This document shows, piece after piece, positions 22,181 to 29,343 of a stretch of DNA of 64,000 nucleotides; position 1 is the first letter of the stretch; the number at the start of each line of letters is the position of its first letter. Source of the DNA: Xestospongia bergquistia (lineage: Eukaryota; Porifera; Demospongiae; Haplosclerida; Petrosiidae); NCBI GenBank assembly GCA_963965975.1, contig OZ014413.1, forward strand, positions 6,889,501 to 6,953,500. Reading direction: 5' to 3'. Both the position numbers and the translations under genes were made by a program. Below the pieces are notes generated by a model that saw nothing but the letters and a program-made list of their open reading frames with translations, had not been told where the DNA came from and did no database searches.

Positions 22181-25100
22181 GACCAGTATTCTGATCTAAC
22201 TGAGATTGAGTCTAAGGAGACATTAGATGAAGTGACAAGATCAGGTGGATCGCTAAAAGATGGTCCATTAAGAGCACTATCAAGTACAGTATTTGAGGAT
22301 CCTAACAAGTTAAAATTGTTTGGTACTGTCTTATTACAATCAAAGGAGACAGTACAAGTAGCAAAAGATATACTCAAAGAATTTGGTAAGTGGTTTGAAT
22401 TTGTAGTAATCTGATTGTTATATTATTTTTGTACAGACCAACATTTTCCTCATGAAGGTTTACCTCAAAATCAATTCGGTATGACTATGATATATGGTTT
22501 ATTCTGTGACAATTAAAATATATACTTCTTTGATATAGATATTGTCCCTCTTGATGTTTCAACAGTGAATGTTATGTCAAAAAGTGCTCCAGGTTATTGA
22601 ATTTAATTTCTGTTATACTCTATTAATTTGTTAATAAAAATACTAACAGGTGCTGTAACAGAGCTCCATGTTCAACGTACTTATCAGTATAATTTTGATC
22701 AAATTAGAGCAAAACTTGGTATCCTTGTAGATACAGTGGAACCTCTCATTAAATCTGCAGTAGAATCAAAATTGAAAGAGTTCAAAAAGTTTCTTGGAAG
22801 GTGTTTCCAAGAGCTGAAGCCTCAATTGTCTGTAGCTAAATGTTTTGATGATGTTATGGAGTTAGTGGAAAAAATGTGCACCATCAACAATGTTTGTTGC
22901 TTGGAGATTATTGCTGATAAGTACAACATTGAAAAGGCTAAAGGTCATATCACAGAATACAAATTGGAATTAGATGAGCTTTGTAAAGAAATCAGAGTCA
23001 GTGTGTGTGAAAATGAGAACTTTATGATAAGCTCATCTTCTCTTCTCAAATGTGAGACCATCAAACTTGTTCTCGAGTGGGAACCTAATGAATGTTATCT
23101 AAATCAGATCAGTGATATATTAGTAAAAGCATTTCAAGATATGGCCAAAAGAGTCCACATTAGAGTGATAAATAAAGACGACTCAATCACTGTGACCTGC
23201 TATGCTCCACGAAATATAATGGATATTCTACTATTGGAAGCTATGAAGAATCTTGATGTACTAATAAATATGGGTTTAATCAAACTAAATATCGGCTACC
23301 ATATTGTTTGTGGTAGATGTACAAGAGATAAGGTATGAGAAATGATTACTACTATTACTATTACATATCATAAGTGTTGATATATAGGAAGTGAGAGGAC
23401 TTATGGATGAAGTGAAAGTTTTAGAAGAGAAGCTTGTTTTACAAAGAAAAGAATCAGCTGAAAAAGATCAACAAATACTGGTGTTGAAATCATCTCCAGA
23501 AGGTAAGTATGCGTGATGATTATATCATCATTATTATTACATGTTTTCTAGTTTATACCAGTATTGAGAAAGAAGAATCACAAGATCAATCATTAACTGG
23601 CACTTTATCAGGTACATACATTTACATTAGTTCAGATATAACTATGTACCTAATATAAACAGAGTAGCTAAAACTACTGGATAAAATGAGTAAGGCAAAA
23701 ACCTTAGAGATAGAGAAGTTAACCAGACATAAAGAAAGTGAGCTATAGTATGTTAGTAGTACATACCATATATGGTTATGTTCTATAGCTACTGATAAAG
23801 TATTAGTAGACAAACAAGAAGAGATTGAGATACTGCAGGAAAAAATCACATTGTTAACTTTAGAATTAAAGGAGAGAGAAGGGGCAATCAGTCAATTTAT
23901 TCAAAAGATAACCAGTAAAATATATATAAAATACATTAGTGAAATTATTATAATTATTATTATCAGGTCTGCAATCTCAAATATCAGAAATCAAACCAGC
24001 AGCAATTAATAAGACAGAAACTGATAAACCAAACCAAGAAATGTCACCTAGCAATGACAAGATATCATCTGACGATACAACAATTACTAAAGTGATATCA
24101 AGTAGTCAAAGTAAATTAGTATATATGTTGTTATATATTCTTTGCTATATATTGTACTTACTACAAAATTTTGATTTGAACTTAAATATATATTGTAGTT
24201 GTGACCTGGTAAGTTAGAGTATTGACAGTGTTATATGTAGTAAGTATTCAGTAATCTTTTAAATGAAATTTCACTAAAGTGCTTAACCTCGGCTGCAGTT
24301 TTATCCAATGACTTCCTCAAGTGACGTAATATTACGTGTCAAGATGATTATTGATAACTCTTCAATCAAAGGGAAAAAAAGCTTTGCCTTTTAGTGCGTC
24401 TACTGGGTACTTTGCACTCTAATTGACAAAAGGTCTAATACTTTACAACTTCTTAGTAAAAGTTAGTCATTCTCCAATGACAGCTATGGTGGTAATATTT
24501 TTAGTTCGCGCTCAATGTATCTACAAAGATAACTGCCAAAACTTAGTAAAACTGTCATAACTTACCAAAGAAGTATTTTTGCAAAGACTTCTCACTTTAA
24601 AAAGTTAGAAAATATCATAAGCTGTATGCAGGAGGTTTTAATTGAATTCTCTAGTCTCCACTGAAAGCTGTGCTTTTTTCAAAGTTTTTTCAGACTTTTA
24701 AAGCTTTTTTTTCATTTGACACTCCTTTTGGCAGTATTTTTAAGAAGTACAGAAGTTTTGCTACCATCCACTATGGTTTGGTGGCTACCAGTGCCTTGTT
24801 TGCCGAGCTAAAGCAGTTCAAAGCCATTTTTACCCGGGTAACAGCACACACACTGACAGACTCTCGCTATGCGCCCACACACAGCAAGGTTAATAATTAT
24901 TTTATAAGGATGTGGCCCATTTTTATTAAAGCAGTGAAATTTATCATTTTTATAAATTTAAACACTCAAAACTTATCAGAGGATTTAATATGTCTAACTA
25001 GTAACTGAGCCATATGTCTCTCACAAATAGTCTTAACAGGGAGGGACTGACTCTGTGACACTAACTTACTAATATAGTAGATAATCACTAGTTGGAAACA

Positions 25101-25607
25101 AGAATGGATTATTTCTTAAAGAAATTAAATGATTTTATTACCTCCCTAATGTATGGATGATTGTCATCATCTTAACTGATAAATTGACTACAATCATATA
25201 TTTACTATTTTATCATGTTACACAGTATCTCAAGAATCACATCAACAATCTGAGCTATTACCTCCAGGATGGGAAAGTAGGGTTTCACATAATGGACGTA
25301 TCTACTATGTTGATCATAACACTCGTAATACTACCTGGGATAAACCTCTGGTAGAAGCTATTGTCCAGGACTCATATATCAAAACAGATGATGGTCAAAT
25401 AAACTTAAATATCGAAGATGTTATCAAAGATGTTGTTAAGGTATGTATGGAGAGACTTTGTCCATTCATCTCTAATGAACATGTTCATTTTCGCAGGTTG
25501 ATGAAGAATGGTACATGGGAACACTTAATCGAATCCGTGGAAAATTCCCCAAAAGCAATGTTAAAATGTCTCAAACTCCTCTTTCCAAATTAAGTAAATC
25601 CTCTTAA
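22181..25607 (+). CDS. Modular protein: lineage domain, coiled coil, WW, SH3; 10 exons
   Basis: Exons: 22181-22385, 22437-22478, 22539-22592, 22650-23332, 23388-23502, 23552-23611, 23789-23914, 23967-24110, 25226-25440 and 25497-25607. Every junction is GT-AG and phases agree throughout (584 codons plus stop). Exons 1-3 give a short helical N-terminal part. Exon 4 is a 227-residue domain ([14 protein letters not shown] to [15 protein letters not shown]) that I know only as a recurring sponge/cnidarian domain without assigned function. Exons 5-7 are charged and probably coiled coil ([27 protein letters not shown]). Exon 8 is a Ser/Thr-rich linker. Exon 9 holds a WW domain ([20 protein letters not shown], second Trp in TTWDKP) and the SH3 start. 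Exon 10 completes SH3 ([18 protein letters not shown]). It is likely a cytoplasmic adaptor. Seven of nine introns are phase 1. The true start lies upstream and is unknown: a gypsy fossil ends about 20 bp before exon 1, and a stop precedes it at 22178. Confidence 0.72.
24260..24900. repeat. Insertion in the last long intron of the modular gene
   Basis: The intron before the WW exon is duplicated before the second WW exon (24190-24260 with 25980-26030, and 24950-25050 with 26165-26260). The copy at 24 kb contains about 640 extra bp in between, of less A+T-rich composition, ending in a CGCCCACACACAGCAAGG block. No coding domain. It is probably a non-autonomous mobile element inserted after the duplication. 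Confidence 0.5.
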
Positions 25608-26508
25608 TTATAACATCATTAACGATGATAGTCTTAGAGAGATGTTTGTCAGTCACCATGATAATAATATATAACAATGAAGAGGATGTTATTAAGAAAT
25701 TCCGAACCATTAATTGATGAAGCACCTCCCTTTTAAACATTTTAATACAAACTAATACCTATATTACATATGATGACATGTCATTATATGTATTTGAATT
25801 ATTGTTCATTATGTTACATGTTCATTACATTACATTATTTACTATACAATATTAGTATCTACAATGACGAAAAGAAGTATTAAGCATTTTATCATATACT
25901 TTCCAGCATAATACAATTTGGATGCCCACTCCAGTGGTTAAACCCAACCAGACTATTAGCTAGCCAGCTCCCACCTTATATTACTTAAGTTAGGGTACTA
26001 ACATTGCTATATGTAGCATTCAGTACTCTCTTTTTTATTATTGTTTTGAGGCATTGGAATGTAGATAAAAATGATAAGGCAAGTAAAATGGTTTTGTCAA
26101 ATTTTAGTTATCTGTTTAATTTTAATGAGTTCTAGTGAATTTTTCCATTCTTATTTAATAGCAATAAGCATTTATCTTTAAAAACTCAAAACTTATCAGA
26201 GGTACTTAATATATCCAACTAGTAGCTGCACCATATAGCTCTCACAAATTATTATAGTTTAAGCTCAAAATGCATGTCTTTATTAGATTAACTGATTAGG
26301 ACTGTACAGACAATCGCTAGTTGTAAGTAAATTTTCAAATGCTAAGAAATTATTACCTTACAGTGTAAACTATTTAAGATATTTGCAGGAGAAGCTGTAC
26401 TAGTACACATAAAGATAATTATATATAATCATCTTTAATGATAACTATATTGAATGAATGATACATATAATTGCTTGAACTTTTTTACTAATTTACCATA
26501 TTACACAG

Positions 26509-28380: not shown

Positions 28381-28783
28381 ATTTATAAAAGTGCATACAT
28401 CATGCGCAATGCTTATTTTATAACAGATACCCGAGTTTATGTCTTGTCTATTGTGTGCACATCAGTATCATTAAAACTTTAGATTGAATAACAATTAATA
28501 TATTGTTTAGTACTAAGTGAATTGAATTTTGAGTATTTTAATAAAATAGTCCTCAAACCTATAAACTACTAATACTTAAAGGAAAGGTCAAGAATATTTA
28601 TTCAACACAGACATTGGGACTCAACTTGTCTCAGTAGTAGATATTGACATTCTCATCCTGGCTGTGATCATCTAATAAAGTAAATTAGTTGTACTTTTAA
28701 TGTTGTAGTTGAAATTGTTAGGGCATACATATAGCTATTGTTATGTGTGCAAAATATTATATAGTAACTATGTTTTATTATAG

Positions 28784-29343
28784 GAGACACTAGAAGTGTT
28801 AAGTGGACTAGTGATAGTGTTATACTTACTTCATCTACTGTGGCAGAATGTAAAGAAGTGATACATCAACTAAAAAGACGACAGCACACAACATGGAGTA
28901 TTAGACTCAAGTCATTATCTTCTCAAAGTTTACTAACACTATTAATCAATATTAATGAGTGTCGTGTAAGGAGTCTTTATATAGAGAACACTCCTTTTGA
29001 TAGTATTTGTGTCATTCAACTGTCACAATTTGTGACTTATAACAAAACAATGGAGATCCTTGCTTTTCACTCCTCACCTCTCTTACCAGATACTTACAAG
29101 TCATTAACAACAGCTCTTGCTAATAATAGAATAATGAAGGTATTATATTTGTATAATGACAATAACATTACTGATAAAGACATACCTCATTTCTTTCAAG
29201 TTATCATTAATAATAACACATTACAAGAACTAGATTTCACTGACTGTCCTAATATTACTAAATTTGGTGAACAACAATTACAAAATGTTTTAGTTAAAAA
29301 TAATAGTTTGAGTGTGTGTGTTAATTTCAAAAAAATTCGTTAA
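28784..29343 (+). CDS. Leucine-rich-repeat C-terminal exon
   Basis: The exon opens after a TTATAG acceptor in phase 1 and runs 185 codons to TAA. A linker (DTRSVKWTSDSVILTSS) is followed by about four LRR units of the NLR/ribonuclease-inhibitor kind: SIRLKSLSSQSLLTLL, VRSLYIENTPFDS, MEILAFHSSPL, KVLYLYNDNNITDKDI and LQELDFTDCPNI. LRRs of this type bind proteins. No Met is needed if it is spliced from an upstream exon. The phase fits the exon-8 donor at 24110 exactly, so it could be a third alternative C terminus of the modular gene. Alternatively it belongs to a separate gene using the TATA-like site at 28380. There is no NACHT or other effector domain nearby. Confidence 0.65.

Follow-up and report, generated by a model that had tools for sequence, protein, structure and literature searches.

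A 5′-truncated gene of a sponge family with Death and TRADD-N-like domains carries its WW-SH3 units in series ahead of a single LRR exon

Introduction

The closest described relatives of the gene reported here are the NCOA6-clade TRADD-N proteins of Amphimedon, of which the account of Kaur et al. (2021; PMC8195603), as far as it is drawn on here, counts 357, mostly with one to three Death-like domains, a TRADD-N domain and a variable C-terminus. The commonest C-termini in that account are ankyrin repeats, or an SH3 domain followed by leucine-rich repeats (LRRs), and in its model the Death-fold domains recruit an apoptotic or immune complex while TRADD-N keeps the flanking domains inactive until a signal arrives. 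We examined a 64,000-nucleotide stretch of the Xestospongia bergquistia genome (contig OZ014413.1, positions 6,889,501 to 6,953,500; the window, whose coordinates are used throughout) and a gene at 22.2–29.3 kb within it, for which the original prediction was that one N-terminal body could be joined by alternative splicing to three different C-terminal modules. It is highly probable that this region is one gene without three alternative ends, a 5′-truncated and probably decaying descendant of a large family with the order Death, CARD/DED-like, TRADD-N, coiled coil, (WW-SH3)n and LRR.

The family resembles the Amphimedon proteins, as they are presented in PMC8195603, in its Death-like domain(s), TRADD-N-like domain, variable C-terminus including SH3 and LRRs, and very large copy number (at least 158 matches to exon 4 in the genome, 150 of 473 candidates having been scored). 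The window copy differs from them in lacking a Death exon and half of exon 1, and in carrying two tandem WW-SH3 units; the term 'WW domain' has no occurrence in the main text of that paper. A genetic parallel comes from the zebrafish NLR-B30.2 genes, for which the part of PMC4852459 considered here reports that the signalling half and the recognition exon differ in tree and in synonymous divergence, explained by gene conversion acting differently on each, with positive selection in the recognition domain.

Results

One reading frame runs through all modules

The rebuilt gene model holds a single frame of 870 residues through all modules, with GT-AG sites throughout and coil exon 7 omitted (Table 1). 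The frame runs from TRADD-N/coil to WW-SH3, WW-SH3′ and LRR, and the sole stop closes the LRR exon (22181–29343). As predicted, the donor of exon 8 (after 24110) is phase 1, and so are the three acceptors, 25226, 26509 and 28784, each followed by an open module (WW-SH3, WW-SH3′ and LRR-like, respectively). The two WW-SH3 units had further been taken for terminal modules with their own stops; both in fact run into donors, AATTAA/gtaaat at 25594 and AATTAA/gtaaac at 26877 (exon/intron), and the stops used in that reading lie 4 and 3 codons beyond. Because these two donors are phase 1, the exons from 22181 to 29343 join in one frame, and the set of three terminal modules was rejected. Exon 7 was likewise rejected as part of the reading frame, having an in-frame TAG or, from other acceptors, the wrong phase.

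WW domains were recognized by Pfam in both units (E values of 4e-13 and 9e-10), SH3 above the Pfam cut-off in unit 2 only (E 4e-8; unit 1 SH3 below cut-off), and no LRR model exceeded the cut-off in the LRR exon (LRR_6, E 0.92). The two units are a tandem duplication that includes introns and flanks (repeat pieces of 138–244 bases, spacing 1280–1283, identity 80–83%). Unit 2 looks relaxed, with a ratio of non-synonymous to synonymous substitution (dN/dS) of 0.74–0.96 against unit 1 and four relatives.

Table 1. Features of the gene and of the repeat abutting it, in window coordinates
Feature	Position	Strand	Remarks
Truncated interspersed repeat	21808..22210	-	Long terminal repeat (LTR)-retroelement-like, strand and type by eye; abuts start of exon-1 homology
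Exon 1, remaining second half	22211..22385	+	CARD/DED-like by eye
Exon 2, small	22437..22478	+	Phase 1-1
Exon 3, small	22539..22592	+	Phase 1-1; first in-frame ATG of remaining gene here
Exon 4 (N4), 227-residue domain	22650..23332	+	Helical by eye towards the N-terminus, TRADD-N (NCOA6 clade)-like towards the C-terminus
Coil exon 5	23388..23502	+	Phase 0 in, 1 out
Coil exon 6	23552..23611	+	Phase 1-1; more similar C-terminal block starts about here
Coil exon 7, 75 nucleotides (nt)	23663..23737	+	In-frame TAG; either skipped or ends protein
Coil exon 7b	23789..23914	+	Phase 1-1
Exon 8	23967..24110	+	Phase 1-1; homologous exon and same-place donor in L009, L028
WW-SH3 unit 1, first exon (WW and SH3 start)	25226..25440	+	
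WW-SH3 unit 1, second exon (SH3 end)	25497..25593	+	Phase-1 donor at 25594
WW-SH3 unit 2, first exon	26509..26723	+	Tandem duplicate of unit 1 at 1283 spacing; Arg in place of second WW tryptophan
WW-SH3 unit 2, second exon	26780..26876	+	Phase-1 donor at 26877
LRR exon with gene's stop	28784..29343	+	ATTAAA 42 nt past stop

Relatives keep one module order

Throughout the 146-Mb genome (21 contigs), at least 150 matches to the LRR exon were found (150 of 378 candidates scored) and 30 to WW-SH3, the latter including WW-only matches elsewhere; all matches covering WW and SH3 of this kind sit on one contig (C3). We compared the window gene with 20 relative loci (L numbers), seven of them picked for WW-SH3 or SH3 matches, so that module proportions among the loci are not frequencies. 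In all 16 genes with both N4 and LRR, the window gene included, the order on one strand is N4, coil exons, exon 8 where present, WW-SH3 where present and LRR; exon 1, wherever it was found, comes first. Two loci (L012 and L023) showed no N4 within the stretch examined, and in L024 N4 is frame-shifted. Counting overlapping loci once, 20 genes bear an LRR exon: five have WW-SH3 (window, L009, L010, L011 and L012), two retain an SH3 remnant only and thirteen have neither.

In L026 (G000:C12:6399041-6399741) a coil exon and its intron are tandemly repeated (seven matches at 115-base spacing), and coil length may change by such exon multiplication. The window itself holds, at 13548–13703 (+), an exon-1 fragment of another family member, 54% identical over residues 23–74 of the L016 query.

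Exon 4 points to a possible TRADD-N family

Exon 4 on its own returned nothing above the Pfam cut-off and no solved-structure profile match. Scanned with the NCOA6_TRADD-N model PF13820, the whole genome yielded eight weak matches (E 0.18–2.9), seven of them inside N4 copies, in the C-terminal half. The serine S178 is invariant in 15 of 15 aligned N4 sequences and lies between strands 2 and 3, a placement read by eye, as does the Ser of the uS motif. Upstream, an exon with an in-frame ATG precedes exon 1 in nine of nine relatives read, and in both relatives scanned this first exon encodes a Death domain (PF00531; E 1.7e-7 and 7.7e-5). The helical exon 1 that follows the Death exon in relatives is CARD/DED-like by eye only; Pfam and solved-structure profile searches with exon 1 were without match. 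An SH3-then-LRR C-terminus, common but not universal in the described family, occurs in the window gene, L009, L010, L011 and L012 (unit-1 SH3 and LRR below the Pfam cut-off). On these domain matches the family would belong with the Death/TRADD-N expansion known from Amphimedon (PMC8195603). Two results weigh against this placement: every PF13820 match falls below the Pfam cut-off, and none of 15 N4 sequences lists TRADD-N when scanned singly.

Death-like domains, of which most architectures in the described family have one to three N-terminal to TRADD-N, were found in relatives and are absent from the window, which makes the window copy a truncated descendant rather than a complete family member. 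Like NACHT-LRR receptors (NLRs), the family has a Death-fold N-terminus (in relatives) and an LRR C-terminus; unlike them, it has a TRADD-N-like domain and a coil in the middle, and five pieces of the window gene, scanned at E up to 10, gave no match to NACHT or another STAND NTPase.

The window copy is truncated at a repeat

Homology to relatives begins at 22211, in mid exon 1, and not at the predicted exon start of 22181; the first half of exon 1 is gone, and 22181–22210 is repeat sequence. The Death exon was not found in the 64-kb window. Positions 21960–22210 form a repeat with 10 other copies at 88–96%, nine of which share sequence as far as the base corresponding to 22210. The nine repeat copies compared are alike beyond the break, their match to the window stopping at 22207–22210, and by eye the repeat resembles the 3′ terminus of an LTR element on the minus strand. 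The terminal branch of the window's repeat copy is 1.2%, measured on about 251 bases, a length that makes the date of the break a rough one. Further damage consists of the TAG in coil exon 7, at a codon that reads AAG in all 15 relatives compared, and of the loss of the second tryptophan from the WW of unit 2. The window copy is probably a young pseudogene, or else a shortened gene starting in exon 3.

A rival explanation, possible though unlikely, is that this shortened gene works: from the exon 3 ATG it would yield a TRADD-N/WW-SH3/LRR protein without Death domains, perhaps a decoy or regulator. N4, WW-SH3 and LRR are all open in this truncated copy, exon 7 can be skipped in frame, and window N4 has a dN/dS of 0.25–0.42 against 14 relatives; these open exons weigh against decay, and the copy may be expressed from another start. 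The TAG in exon 7 and the missing Death exon count against a working gene and, since the repeat at the break is young, open frames say little in its favour.

WW-SH3 is probably an internal cassette

Splice sites and poly(A) signals of the relatives bear on whether the WW-SH3 units are ends or internal exons. The donor GT is retained at seven of eight SH3 ends examined, and the acceptor AG of the LRR exon at all 18 loci examined. The exception among the donors is an orphan WW-SH3 unit at window 3403–3756 (+), about 19 kb upstream of the gene with no LRR nearby, which has two stops and has lost its SH3-end donor (at 3756). Of 17 LRR copies, 14 have AATAAA 31–44 nt past the stop; L010 and L018 lack both AATAAA and ATTAAA within 600 nt of it. 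After the SH3 end, both signals are absent from the 915 nt scanned behind window unit 1 and from the 651 nt scanned in L009. The window gene does not have the form of a gene with alternative terminal exons, whose ends would each carry a poly(A) signal and lack a donor.

The same exon-8 donor is found in L009, which has WW-SH3, and in L028, which has no WW-SH3 match, and parts of the L028 intron match the L009 intron on both sides of the cassette. Where no LRR lies downstream in the stretches examined (three units: the orphan unit, L014 and L015), the WW-SH3 unit is broken by stops or frame breaks; all six full units ahead of an LRR are open. We read WW-SH3 as an internal cassette that some relatives carry and others lack.

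Several observations run counter to a purely internal role. A stop follows the SH3 donor by 3–4 codons in five of six units measured (by 19 codons in L009), and AATAAA follows SH3 by 133, 129 and 110 nt in L010, L011 and L012, respectively; behind window unit 2 the first AATAAA comes after 677 nt. Transcripts may thus end after SH3. Such signals are weak evidence either way because the genome is so A+T-rich; GC is about 31%. Two SH3-only remnants ahead of an LRR carry one stop each.

Alternative splicing of exon 8 to WW-SH3, WW-SH3′ or directly to LRR, whether by cassette skipping or as alternative ends, is in our view improbable. All borders are phase 1, so every combination, facultative cassette skipping included, would remain in frame; the WW-less L028 has just this arrangement, an exon-8-like exon followed directly by the LRR exon, and the brief open extensions and nearby AATAAA just described also speak for it. 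Against it stand the conserved SH3-end donors, the lack of a poly(A) signal after unit 1 and in L009, and the relaxed unit 2 with its lost tryptophan. Three separate genes (N-terminal coil, WW-SH3 and LRR, each with its own promoter) are hardly credible, the long introns of 1115, 915 and 1907 nt being the only point in favour (no promoter search was made), against the LRR exon that in all 17 relatives compared follows a coil or SH3 exon, with strand and acceptor position shared, and the three broken units that have no LRR downstream.

What stands of the original prediction is its phase-1 borders; the alternative ends give way to modules in series, which relatives keep in a constant order before an LRR exon that in most copies has a poly(A) signal. 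Module swapping is supported in another form, with WW-SH3 optional between relatives and the two halves of the gene having separate histories, as though re-paired in DNA (below).

N- and C-terminal halves have separate histories

Compared with 17 relatives, the window gene is 66–78% identical over exons 1–5 where a match was found, 82–90% over coil exons 6–7b with their introns, and 79–84% over the LRR exon with some 50–95 nt of upstream intron and 23–163 nt of 3′ flank. No N-terminal DNA match to the window gene was found in L009 and L011, no coil match in L010 and L012 and no LRR match in L026; a single match without visible step spans N-terminal exons through coil in L016, L025, L026 and L028.

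Protein identities in N4 and LRR are nearly unrelated (Spearman 0.18, 105 pairs, p 0.065; 15 genes). Between N4 clades, with L026 left out, median synonymous divergence (dS) is 1.27 in N4 (0.79–3.08, partly saturated) versus 0.10 in LRR (0.03–0.36), and every one of the 83 pairs has an N4 dS more than twice its LRR dS. Pairs from within one N4 clade show similar values in the two exons (LRR lower in seven of eight pairs), so a lower mutation rate of the LRR exon cannot explain the gap. Over 91 pairs, again leaving out L026, N4 dS and LRR dS are uncorrelated (rho 0.06). L026 shows the reverse, with an N4 dS of 0.12–0.15 to L016 and L028 but an LRR dS of 1.02.

Approximately unbiased (AU) tests on LRR proteins rejected the N4 clades {L016, L026, L028} (p 0.0026) and {L017, L018} (p 0.02), and did not reject {L009, L011}, {L016, L028} or {L020-L022}. 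On LRR DNA without L026, {L020-L022} was rejected (p 0.039), and {L009, L011} (p 0.062), {L016, L028}, {L017, L018} and {L017, L018, L027} were not. Rejection of only three of ten N4-clade constraints on LRR trees tells against separate histories and leaves topology weaker than the dS evidence. Throughout, dN/dS was estimated pairwise by the Nei-Gojobori method, and many of the N4 dS values approach saturation.

The rear half thus appears to move between family members through changes in the DNA, not through alternative splicing. Gene conversion or exon replacement, indistinguishable in these data, would each produce such a pattern. A limited literature search found no paper on exchange in the sponge Death/TRADD-N family.

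Replacements in the LRR exon cluster on the predicted binding face

N4 within clades has a dN/dS of 0.27 (bootstrap 0.20–0.36). In the LRR exon of 16 genes (window and L026 left out) the ratio is 1.14, and its bootstrap range of 0.86–1.49 means that positive selection across the whole LRR is not demonstrated; a 14-gene subset picked after seeing distances (L010 and L027 dropped) gave 1.40 (1.05–1.95). LRR replacements cluster at xxLxLxx positions, the predicted binding face, where none of 185 circular shifts attains the observed rate; the nine strand positions were assigned by a simple pattern, which may have taken in places that are not true strands. The dN/dS contrast there is small (1.25 versus 1.01 elsewhere in LRR) because synonymous change is also higher at these positions.

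Other features of the window

Copies of one membrane-protein family, recognized by eye, lie at 5505–6579 (+), 19314–20877 (-), 29644–30900 (-) and 48878–49918 (+), two of them flanking the gene, and share a stretch 'NYARKN.YPRN.SALTYWE' at 29644–30033 and 48878–49387; the two pieces scanned (19630–20877 and 48878–49387) had no Pfam match. A fucosyltransferase occupies a single open frame at 11284–12408 (+) (Glyco_transf_10, E 1.5e-43, plus its N-terminal domain), and a retroviral-type protease fragment at 39385–39807 (-) falls slightly below the Pfam cut-off (RVP, E 0.0023).

Discussion

The closest genetic parallel to these separate histories is zebrafish NLR-B30.2, on the description in PMC4852459 that is used here: in both systems the halves have different trees and synonymous divergence. 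The sponge family differs in that no NACHT and no B30.2 were found here, the exchanged exon is the LRR, the animal lineage is unrelated, and positive selection over the whole LRR is not demonstrated.

Intact relatives may act as cytoplasmic adaptors or sensors. Their Death-fold domains would recruit a death- or inflammation-type complex, and TRADD-N would be the switch within the protein. The trigger or partners would be bound by the variable LRR, the likely signal-binding part, together with WW-SH3 in those relatives that have it. The recognition role suggested by the original prediction is plausible, given the Death/TRADD-N family and the variable LRR face, with diversity that would be generated in the germline. 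Phase-1 borders in the C-terminal part allow whole coil, WW-SH3 and LRR blocks to come and go, to double or to pass from one relative to another with the frame intact.

We tentatively propose, as a reading with a real though less than even claim, that this hundreds-strong Death/TRADD-N family renews its recognition repertoire by copying C-terminal blocks (coil, WW-SH3 and LRR) via phase-1 introns between relatives with unlike N-terminal halves, under diversifying selection on the LRR binding face and possibly with optional WW-SH3 splicing, as an independent counterpart of zebrafish NLR-B30.2 in an animal lineage among the earliest.

Two missed donors correct an attractive alternative-splicing reading, and the exon-4 domain, which has no Pfam match, finds a likely place in an immune-like family already in the literature. 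In members of this family the signalling and recognition halves have separate histories; between distant relatives the recognition exon has diverged far less than the rest, and its changes are most frequent where binding is predicted. If the proposed exchange is true, the family would be an early-animal parallel to the receptor families of fish.

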